The translations under genes were made by a program, and so were the position numbers. A stretch of DNA of 64,000 bases. Origin: Streptomyces sp. NBC_01551. Its GTDB lineage: Bacteria; Actinomycetota; Actinomycetes; Streptomycetales; Streptomycetaceae. Within the stretch, counting starts at the first letter, position 1. Each line of letters starts with the position of its first letter. Shown here piece after piece: positions 60,541-63,005 of the stretch. A model generated the notes under the pieces. That model ran no database searches. It was given only the letters and a program-made list of their open reading frames with translations, and was not told the DNA's origin. The stretch covers positions 5,483,501 through 5,547,500 of the forward strand of contig NZ_JAPEPX010000001.1 of NCBI RefSeq assembly GCF_026339935.1, written 5' to 3'.

Positions 60541-60655
60541 GCGGGCGGCTCTCCTGGTCGCACCCCCGGGCGGACGACAACGGGCATGCCATGGCGAAAA
60601 ATCGTATAAAGGGCAGGTCTGGCGGAGTCCGACGAGCGCGGAAGGCGGGAGGACC

Positions 60656-61882
60656 GTGGAGGGGACGCAGCGCACGGTGGCGGAGGGCCGTGGCCCGGTC
60701 CGCTACGGCCCACCCGCGCCCGAGCCCGGCCTGCCGGTGCTGCCCGAGCTCGCCGCCGTCCTCGCCGAGGCCGCCCGGCAGGCCGTCCCCGAGCCCCCGG
60801 GCGGCGGGGAACCCGTACGGGAGGCCGCCTGCCGGCACTGGGCGCGGCGCGGGCTCGCCACCGCCCCCGAGAACGTGGCCGCCGGACCCGGCGCGCCCGC
60901 CCTGCTGCTCGCGCTGCTGGGCGCCTACGGGGGCGACGTCATGCTGCCCCGGCCCTGTCCCGCCTGGTGGACGCCACAGGTCCGGCTGCTGGGACGGCGG
61001 GCGTACCACGTGCCGACCCCGGCCGAGTGCGGCGGCGTCCCCGACCCGTACGCCCTGCTGGAGACCGTCCGCCGGGTCCGCGCCGAGGGCGGCGACCCGC
61101 GCGTGCTGCTGCTCTCGGTCGCCGACGACCCGACCGCGACCGTGCCGCCGCCCGAGCTGCTGCGCGAGGCCTGCGAGGCCGCCGCCGACGCCGATCTGTT
61201 CGTCGTCAGCGACGAGAGCTGGCGCGACACCGTACACCGGCCCCACGACACCCTCGTCCTGAGCCCCGCCGAGATGCTCCCCGACCGGGCCGCCGTACTC
61301 GTCGACCTGGCGGGCGCGCTGCTGCCCGCCGGGTGGCCCGCCGCCGTCGCCCGCTTCCCCGGCACCCCGCGCGGGACCTGGCTGCGGGCCCGCACCCTCG
61401 ACGTGCTCACCGCGACGGGCGCGCTCGTCGCCGGCCCGGTCGCCGCGGCCGCCGCGCACGCCCTGGAGGAGCCCGACGCGGTCGCCGGACGCGCCTACGC
61501 GGCGGCCGCCCTGCACGGCGCGGTGGCCGCCGCCGTGCACCGCGAGCTGCTCGCCGTCGGCGCGTTCGCGCGGCCCCCTCAAGCAGGCCGCCACCTGTAC
61601 GCCGACCTGGGCCCGCTGCGCGCGGGGCTGGCCCGGCACGGGGTGGGCGACGCGATGGAGCTGGAGGACTGGCTCGGCGCGCGGCTCGGCGCGCCGACGC
61701 CCGGCGGGCAGCGGTTCGCGGACGAACCGGTCGCGCTGCGGGTCCGGCTGTCGACGGGGCCCTTCCTCGGCGCGACCCCGGGGGAGCGGCTGGCCGCGCT
61801 GACGGCGCGCGACCCGCTGGACCTCCCGCACGTACGGGGCTCGCTGGAGCGCCTGCGGTCGGTCCTGGCCGGGCTGTCCTGA
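60656..61882 (+). CDS. Aminotransferase-fold homologue without any lysine
   Basis: Protein of 408 aa with the layout of fold-type I class I/II aminotransferases. VAAGPGAPALLLALLGAYGG would be the cofactor-phosphate region, and SDESWRDTVH at 185-194 matches the DExY motif. VLVDLAGALLPAGWP (214-228) sits where SxSKxxxxxGxR should hold the PLP lysine, and there it has Gly220. The sequence contains no lysine at all, so a Schiff base with PLP cannot form. It is therefore a pseudo-aminotransferase or has a different chemistry. GTG 60656 has GGGAGGA at 2-8 bp upstream. TATAAA at 60605-60610 may be its promoter. It is coupled to the next gene by TGATG. Confidence 0.85.
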   Translation: MEGTQRTVAEGRGPVRYGPPAPEPGLPVLPELAAVLAEAARQAVPEPPGGGEPVREAACRHWARRGLATAPENVAAGPGAPALLLALLGAYGGDVMLPRPCPAWWTPQVRLLGRRAYHVPTPAECGGVPDPYALLETVRRVRAEGGDPRVLLLSVADDPTATVPPPELLREACEAAADADLFVVSDESWRDTVHRPHDTLVLSPAEMLPDRAAVLVDLAGALLPAGWPAAVARFPGTPRGTWLRARTLDVLTATGALVAGPVAAAAAHALEEPDAVAGRAYAAAALHGAVAAAVHRELLAVGAFARPPQAGRHLYADLGPLRAGLARHGVGDAMELEDWLGARLGAPTPGGQRFADEPVALRVRLSTGPFLGATPGERLAALTARDPLDLPHVRGSLERLRSVLAGLS

Positions 61883-62910
61883 TGGGGGAGCGGACGCAGA
61901 CGCCGGCCCGTGGCGCCGTGGCGCGGCGGCCGGCGACGCGGCCCGAGCCGGTCACCCGGCCGCCGGGGGAGATCCGGCACTGGCCGCGCTCGTTCGCCGA
62001 CCGACTGACGACCCCGCTGCCCGGCGTCCGGGCCTTCGCCCGGCTCGCCCGCGAGGGCGCCTTCCGGCCCGATCCCGAGGGCCTGCGCGGCATCCCCGAC
62101 CTGCCGTACGAGCCGGCTCCGCTCCCGGAGGCGGCCCCCGGCGCGGTGTCCGTCACCTGGGCCGGGCACGCCAGCTGGGTGCTCCGGCTGGGCGGGCTGA
62201 CCGTCCTGACCGACCCGGTCTGGTCCCGGCGCATCCTGGGGACACCGGCTCGGATGACGCCCGTCGGGGTGCGGTGGGAGGACCTGCCGCCGGTCGACGC
62301 GGTGGTGATCAGCCACAACCACTACGACCACCTCGACGCGCCGACGCTGCGGCGGCTGCCGCGCGACACGGCCCTGTTCGTCCCGGCCGGGGTCGGGCGC
62401 TGGTGCCGGCGGCGCGGGTTCACGCGGGTGACGGAGCTGGACTGGTGGGAGTCCGCCGAGCTGGGCGGCGTACGGTTCGACTTCGTCCCGGCGCACCACT
62501 GGTCGAAGCGGTCGCTGATCGACACCTGCCGGACGCTGTGGGGCGGGTGGATCCTGACGGACGAACGGGGCGCGGGCCGGCAGGTCTACTTCGCGGGCGA
62601 CACCGGGTACGGGCACTGGTTCGCGGAGATCGGGCGCCGCCACCCGGGGATCGACCTGGCGCTGCTGCCGATCGGGGCGTACGCCCCGAGGTGGTGGCTG
62701 CGGGACGTGCACGCCGATCCGGAGGAGGCGGTGCGGGCGTGCCTGGACCTGGGCGCGCGGCGGATGGCCCCGATGCACTGGGCGACCTTTGTCCTGTCGG
62801 CCGAGCCGGTCATGGAGCCGCTCCACCGCGTCCGCGCCGCCTGGTCCCGCGCGGGCCTGCCCCGCGAGGCCCTCTGGGACCTCCCCATCGGCAGCTCCCG
62901 CGCCCTGTGA
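61882..62910 (+). CDS. Metallo-beta-lactamase-fold hydrolase (NAPE-PLD/UlaG-like)
   Basis: Zinc hydrolase of 342 aa. Metal motif HNHYDH at 145-150 (VVISHNHYDHLD), with His95-region GHASWVLRLGG, PAHHWSKR near 203-210, FAGDTGYG with the bridging Asp, and MHWATF near 295 as the last His. This is the pattern of NAPE-PLD-like phosphodiesterases. The N-terminal 30 residues are Arg/Pro-rich and probably disordered, without a clear signal peptide. The start overlaps the lysine-free homologue's stop by one base, so both are made together. Confidence 0.9.
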   Translation: MGERTQTPARGAVARRPATRPEPVTRPPGEIRHWPRSFADRLTTPLPGVRAFARLAREGAFRPDPEGLRGIPDLPYEPAPLPEAAPGAVSVTWAGHASWVLRLGGLTVLTDPVWSRRILGTPARMTPVGVRWEDLPPVDAVVISHNHYDHLDAPTLRRLPRDTALFVPAGVGRWCRRRGFTRVTELDWWESAELGGVRFDFVPAHHWSKRSLIDTCRTLWGGWILTDERGAGRQVYFAGDTGYGHWFAEIGRRHPGIDLALLPIGAYAPRWWLRDVHADPEEAVRACLDLGARRMAPMHWATFVLSAEPVMEPLHRVRAAWSRAGLPREALWDLPIGSSRAL

Positions 62911-63005
62911 CGGCCGGCGCCGGCCTGTGACGGCCGGCGCCGGCCTGTGACGGCCGGCGCCGGCCTGTGACGGCCGGCGCCGGCCTGTGACGGCCCGCGC
63001 CGGCT
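62906..63005 (+). repeat. 20-bp tandem repeat, four perfect copies plus one variant
   Basis: The unit TGTGACGGCCGGCGCCGGCC is repeated exactly at 62906, 62926, 62946 and 62966, and once more with changes at 62986-63005. The first copy begins inside the last codon and stop of the hydrolase gene, so each unit carries a TGA. GCCGGCGCCGGC in each unit is a self-complementary palindrome, so each copy can form a hairpin. It separates two convergent genes. There are no spacers, so it is not a CRISPR. Confidence 0.9.

Follow-up and report, generated by a model that had tools for sequence, protein, structure and literature searches.

Enzymes of the branch formed by aspartate aminotransferase (AspAT) and prephenate aminotransferase (PAT) (PF00155; Thermus AspAT, Tt AspAT, 1bjw; Arabidopsis PAT, 5wmh) are class I aminotransferases of fold type I that depend on pyridoxal phosphate (PLP) and carry a Schiff-base lysine. 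ColD-type dehydratases have a histidine instead of this lysine. The closest precedent for a PLP-fold protein without it is LCB1 (SPTLC1) of serine palmitoyltransferase, which according to PMC3794620 has no PLP lysine, in contrast to LCB2. Going by titles, we found no described lysine-less bacterial aminotransferase of this kind in the open-licence literature, and a text search of the 2023 pseudoenzyme review PMC10211241 did not find the terms aminotransferase, pyridoxal or PLP. Here we analyse a protein of this type, the pseudo-aminotransferase, encoded in a stretch of 64,000 nucleotides (the window) of Streptomyces sp. NBC_01551 next to the gene of a NAPE-PLD-like metallo-beta-lactamase-fold (MBL) hydrolase. 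We consider it rather likely, from comparative evidence, that it arose long ago from an AspAT-like enzyme, has lost PLP chemistry and is kept by purifying selection, with a PLP-free pocket and a non-catalytic, binding or regulatory role in the context of envelope phospholipids.

The PLP lysine position and its surroundings

The predicted model of the window protein and its structural matches agree with the fold type I proposed in the first-pass annotation, the whole predicted fold being like that of AspAT and PAT. Among Pfam families, PF00155 matched just over the cut-off (26 bits, residues 54-198 only) and one further, chance-level match stayed below it; 20 NCBIfam models, mostly of aminotransferases, were every one far under their cut-offs, and motifs of other enzyme families turned up in neither collection. 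The names of the 120 listed nearest proteins, where given, were mostly 'aminotransferase class I/II-fold pyridoxal phosphate-dependent enzyme'. Judged by alignment, the window protein lacks the lysine that such a name implies: in a profile of 18 orthologues set against Thermus AspAT, the glycine of D-L-A-G falls on the lysine of G-A-A-K.

To follow this position across the family we aligned 153 pseudo-aminotransferase rows with 37 rows of a canonical, lysine-bearing sister family. These rows are not independent because they include repeats of single genomes (e.g., L001 = L141 and L026 = L134) and many near relatives; a 75% identity filter leaves 40 pseudo and 26 canonical rows. Column 220 of the pseudo rows is occupied by Gly (131), Ala (15), Ser (3), Val (2), Glu (1) or Pro (1), and after filtering by G 23, A 11, S 3, V 1, E 1 and P 1. 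The 408 residues, the complete lack of lysine and the placement of Gly220 on the Schiff-base position, all read by the first-pass annotation from the letters alone, were thus borne out by translation and alignment, and the absence extends to every orthologue aligned. The sequencing error that the annotation had allowed for, or an isolated mutation, is excluded because orthologues from 95% identity downwards also lack the column-220 lysine. Relocation of the lysine was likewise rejected, as no row carries one within 212-232 and 98 of the 153 have none in the whole aligned protein. A lysine-free protein is in itself mildly unusual and weak evidence: neighbouring open reading frames (a heuristic set) hold 2087 lysines in 258,527 residues (0.81%), from which ~3.3 would be expected in 408 residues and none with a probability of ~0.04. 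What counts is the absence at column 220 across the family. The canonical sisters are also lysine-poor (2-11 lysines, nine of the 37 with 2) and, given this background, the lysine-free state would mainly represent the loss of the last conserved lysines.

The lysine did not disappear alone. Unlike the AspAT/PAT branch, the pseudo family has neither the asparagine contacting PLP O3' nor Lys81, mostly lacks the O3' tyrosine and has almost no phosphate-binding arginine (D158, W189 and P228 in the window protein); we take these contacts, as well as the carboxylate role of another arginine, from AspAT structures, and the geometry of the pocket from homology. The change from Asn to Asp at position 158 is one clean switch between the two families. 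In ColD-type dehydratases the lysine is replaced as well, but in the pseudo family the substitutes are mostly Gly or Ala and most of the PLP cage is gone. The features still in common with AspAT and PAT are the carboxylate Arg and Asp186, whose position presumably pairs with the pyridine N1 in active relatives. The Asp186-Glu187 motif, noted as retained in the first-pass annotation, is invariant in the pseudo rows together with D157, Y315 and R364; D157, D186 and E187 are also carried by the active sister family and are therefore inherited. Over 22 pocket positions entropy was 0.78 bits against 1.35 overall, and none of 5000 random sets was as low; as the positions were picked after viewing the alignment, this is weak support. 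In orthologues L046 and L048 a Gly/Pro-rich loop is inserted just where the lysine motif used to be, and L062 and L066 are longer.

The first-pass annotation had also suggested that the protein might bind PLP non-covalently. This part does not hold up well, since the Asn, Tyr, Arg and Lys81 positions are replaced too and an aspartate occupies position 217, which we assume to lie near or facing the PLP phosphate in active aminotransferases. Without lysine, without a side chain at 220 and with Pro, Pro and Asp at the phosphate site, a PLP complex appears unlikely, whether covalent or of the conventional non-covalent type.

Table 1. Coordinates in the window of the gene pair and of the codons discussed (counts refer to the 153 pseudo and 37 canonical rows)
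Feature	Position	Strand	Remarks
Pseudo-aminotransferase	60656..61882	+	GTG start, 408 aa, 0 Lys, predicted fold type I
Shine-Dalgarno-like GGAGG, 5' of GTG start	60648..60652	+	Sequence
NAPE-PLD-like MBL hydrolase	61882..62910	+	342 aa, metal-ligand motifs intact
Gly220 (GGC), Schiff-base Lys position (Tt AspAT K234)	61313..61315	+	K in 37/37 canonical, 0/153 pseudo
Pro81, invariant Lys of PGSK/PGTK motif in canonical sister family	60896..60898	+	K in 37/37 canonical, 0/153 pseudo
Asp158, PLP O3' Asn position (Tt AspAT N175)	61127..61129	+	N in 37/37 canonical; D in 151/153 pseudo
Asp186-Glu187, kept	61211..61216	+	153/153 pseudo
Trp189, PLP O3' Tyr position	61220..61222	+	Y in 37/37 canonical; W in 134, Y in 10 of 153 pseudo
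Asp217, three residues before Lys position	61304..61306	+	G in 36/37 canonical; D in 142/153 pseudo
Pro228, phosphate-binding Arg position (Tt AspAT R242)	61337..61339	+	R in 37/37 canonical; P in 145, R in 2 of 153 pseudo
Arg362 and Arg364, kept; 362 on substrate-carboxylate Arg of Tt AspAT	61739..61747	+	R362 in 146/153 (His in 7), R364 in 153/153 pseudo

Sister family, origin and maintenance

The canonical sister family comprises the nearest relatives found, with 35-43% identity and mostly listed as 'pyridoxal phosphate-dependent aminotransferase'. It shares the lysine-poor composition of the pseudo family but is encoded at different loci and extends to further families of actinomycetes, has no hydrolase beside it in the flanks fetched, and retains its PLP residues intact, Lys220, Lys81, Asn158, Tyr189 and Arg228 all being present in the 37 sisters. 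In a tree of 71 rows (quick method, midpoint root), one change, with an SH-aLRT of 100, splits the two families. The direction from lysine to no lysine is suggested by the wider spread of the lysine form. A class search gave matches in 38 genomes outside the genus; of these we fetched and read 16, and the lysine was present in every one. The 20 loci fetched from other genera of the family comprised 13 pseudo and 7 canonical ones. Adjoining the split are two proteins from such genera (L181 and L182) in which the lysine is already replaced (by Ser and Ala) and the phosphate Arg and Gly217 are still there. These intermediate motifs suggest that the loss of the lysine and the asparagine probably preceded that of the phosphate site. 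In our reading, the pseudo-aminotransferase goes back to a class I aminotransferase resembling AspAT, from which it diverged long ago.

Six pairwise comparisons (Nei-Gojobori) gave dN/dS values of 0.12-0.25, with dS uncertain because third-position GC is 96%. At E 1e-25, 140 of 150 genomes of the genus had a match, a few of them only via the canonical family, and the matches were mostly full-length and open, with 54-90% identity. Purifying selection on the gene in Streptomyces and related genera is indicated by these comparisons, in line with the first-pass view of a protein selected rather than decayed. Catalytic residues have thus been lost consistently in a protein that selection still maintains, which is the pattern of a pseudoenzyme. 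A relic on its way to becoming a pseudogene would explain why the gene is missing from some genomes and why some matches are split, partial or, in the profile search, interrupted by one stop codon; the dN/dS values, the predominance of full-length open matches and the residues invariant in 153 rows make this very improbable.

Fold-type-I enzymes are dimers with shared active sites, and the pseudo-aminotransferase might be the catalytically dead partner in a heteromer whose other subunit is an active aminotransferase. LCB1 (PMC3794620) is a precedent, but it partners an active paralogue, and in the window genome the best match by E-value to a canonical sister, besides the pseudo-aminotransferase itself, was only 29% identical (E 1.1e-24). 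The close active paralogue of an LCB1-type pair was thus not found in this genome, so that a heterodimer with a close active sister was rejected and the heteromer model weakened; with a more distant aminotransferase still conceivable as partner, we hold it to be highly doubtful.

The adjacent hydrolase and the wider neighbourhood

The first-pass annotation had described a strong ribosome site and a one-base overlap with a complete MBL-fold hydrolase, and all three are confirmed: GGAGG precedes the GTG start, the stop codon and the hydrolase start form TGATG with one base in common (A at 61882), and the hydrolase has its full set of metal ligands (HxHxDH and downstream His, Asp and His), the motif His/Asp being kept in 129-130 of 130 rows and the position beside the pseudo-aminotransferase in most loci. 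The 342-residue protein matches NAPE-PLD (4qn9) over 255 residues (E 1.3e-59), along which the metal-ligand motifs align. It is therefore NAPE-PLD-like, with putative activity on N-acyl-phosphatidylethanolamine.

Of the 153 pseudo rows, 119 have a strong hydrolase match immediately downstream in the same orientation and 3 more have one at 422-513 nt (the rest have a weak match only, 23, none, 1, or no room for it, 7), versus 0 of the 37 canonical rows, where flanks cover only ~2-4 kb. Two weak-match rows (L053 and L174) hold what by appearance are same-strand hydrolase remnants; that of L174, a short one (62% identity, ~230 bases) next to an intact pseudo-aminotransferase, suggests recent loss of the hydrolase. 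At the stop codon of the pseudo-aminotransferase, 27 of 78 named loci have ATGA and 3 TGATG, which is compatible with overlapping starts and no proof of them. The hydrolase is also adjacent in 8 of the 13 pseudo loci from other genera. In five of these eight (L175, L176, L177, L178 and L186) the flank that we fetched revealed no DedA and no true second MBL, so the pair appears to be more than part of a long conserved stretch. Such adjacency, the ATGA and TGATG junctions and the persistence of the pair in other genera would suit an obligate complex partner or activator of the hydrolase, and the first-pass annotation had suggested that the two proteins could form a complex. Nevertheless, 22 of the 150 genus genomes (two assigned by elimination) have no hydrolase at E 1e-60, and 18 of them keep a pseudo-aminotransferase match (some being drafts and some matches partial); conversely, in at least three loci (L191, L194 and L195) the hydrolase stands alone, directly beside a methyltransferase gene with no room for the pseudo-aminotransferase between them. 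A strict partnership was rejected on these grounds, and an obligate complex seems improbable.

Within 68 named loci with full 13-kb stretches, the neighbours comprised a VTT/DedA membrane protein (66), a second MBL (65), a holin/phosphodiesterase membrane protein (62), a methyltransferase (56), the adjacent hydrolase (53) and a fusion of PAP2 phosphatase and diacylglycerol kinase domains (32; L090 2551-4047, minus strand). This company suggests a link to envelope lipid metabolism, which we treat only as a lead since Streptomyces chromosomes widely have gene order in common. The second MBL-fold protein (258 aa; L051 8897-9673, minus strand) has ~33-38% identity to the first and is encoded on the opposite strand; it accompanies the pseudo-aminotransferase in more of these loci than the adjacent hydrolase does.

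The window genome (L218, G000:C1:5544000-5562000) is rearranged just past the hydrolase when compared with S. goshikiensis (L051). The DedA, second MBL and holin-phosphodiesterase genes come directly next in L051 and ~6-10 kb further on, in reverse order and with folD in between, in the window genome; given this reversed order, one of the two genomes would have an inversion. Five copies of a 20-bp unit directly follow the hydrolase (window 62904-63004). A role in anti-phage defence was considered and rejected, as PADLOC gave no defence match for either protein of the pair.

A putative PLP-free binding pocket

The retention of Asp/Glu and Arg residues and the fixed change from Asn to Asp suggest that the pocket still has a job, and we propose on this basis a ligand-binding or regulatory pseudoenzyme. 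The sequences show that the Schiff-base lysine and most of the PLP cage have disappeared across the aligned family, while D157, D158, D186, E187, Y315 and R362/R364 are fixed or nearly so. The former cofactor pocket, devoid of PLP, would bind a small ligand or a partner, most likely through the carboxylate Arg and the acidic residues, and the protein would bind or regulate rather than catalyse. Judging by its neighbours, it would have its place in or close to the metabolism of envelope phospholipids, frequently alongside the NAPE-PLD-like hydrolase and without strictly depending on it. In the boldest version, which we offer very tentatively, the PLP pocket, now without Lys81, Arg228 and Lys220, has been inverted from a cup for phosphate into a cage that is acidic and often aromatic (D158, D186, D217, W104 and W189). 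The ligand would be an amine head group, for instance ethanolamine, and the protein would serve without PLP as a sensor or carrier connected with the hydrolase and with the surrounding DedA and PAP2-diacylglycerol kinase lipid genes; an amine is suggested because acidic residues and Trp replace the phosphate cup beside a lipid head-group hydrolase.

The same residues could instead belong to a new enzyme, its pocket rebuilt for PLP-free catalysis or metal binding via D157, D158, D186 and E187 (plus D217 in most rows). Their conservation (D157, D186 and E187 in 153/153 rows, D158 in 151, D217 in 142) and the clean switch at 158 are in its favour, but three of them come from the active sister family and Pfam and NCBIfam offered no motif of another family, so we regard new catalysis as unlikely. 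It nonetheless ranks above the obligate hydrolase complex, followed in turn by the heteromer with an active aminotransferase.

Several observations weigh against a conserved binding or regulatory protein. The pseudo-aminotransferase seems dispensable in some genomes, as the search at E 1e-25 left 10 of the 150 unmatched and at least two more (G061 and G144) matched only with the canonical family, although several of these are fragmented assemblies. From the loci described above, it and the hydrolase appear to be lost independently of each other. In addition, some residues may count as newly fixed in the pseudo family only because it covers a narrower range of taxa than its sister, and the conserved neighbourhood may be mere inherited chromosomal order.

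Even so, the protein is probably a repurposed non-enzyme, maintained by selection in Streptomyces and sister genera and usually encoded beside a lipid-hydrolase-like gene. The family is common in Streptomyces and is named a PLP enzyme in the listed database records, while being devoid of what PLP chemistry needs, which cautions against assigning function on the strength of a name. As its sister family is active, L181 and L182 are intermediates and its genomic partner is frequently conserved, it would provide a clean case of evolution from enzyme to non-enzyme.
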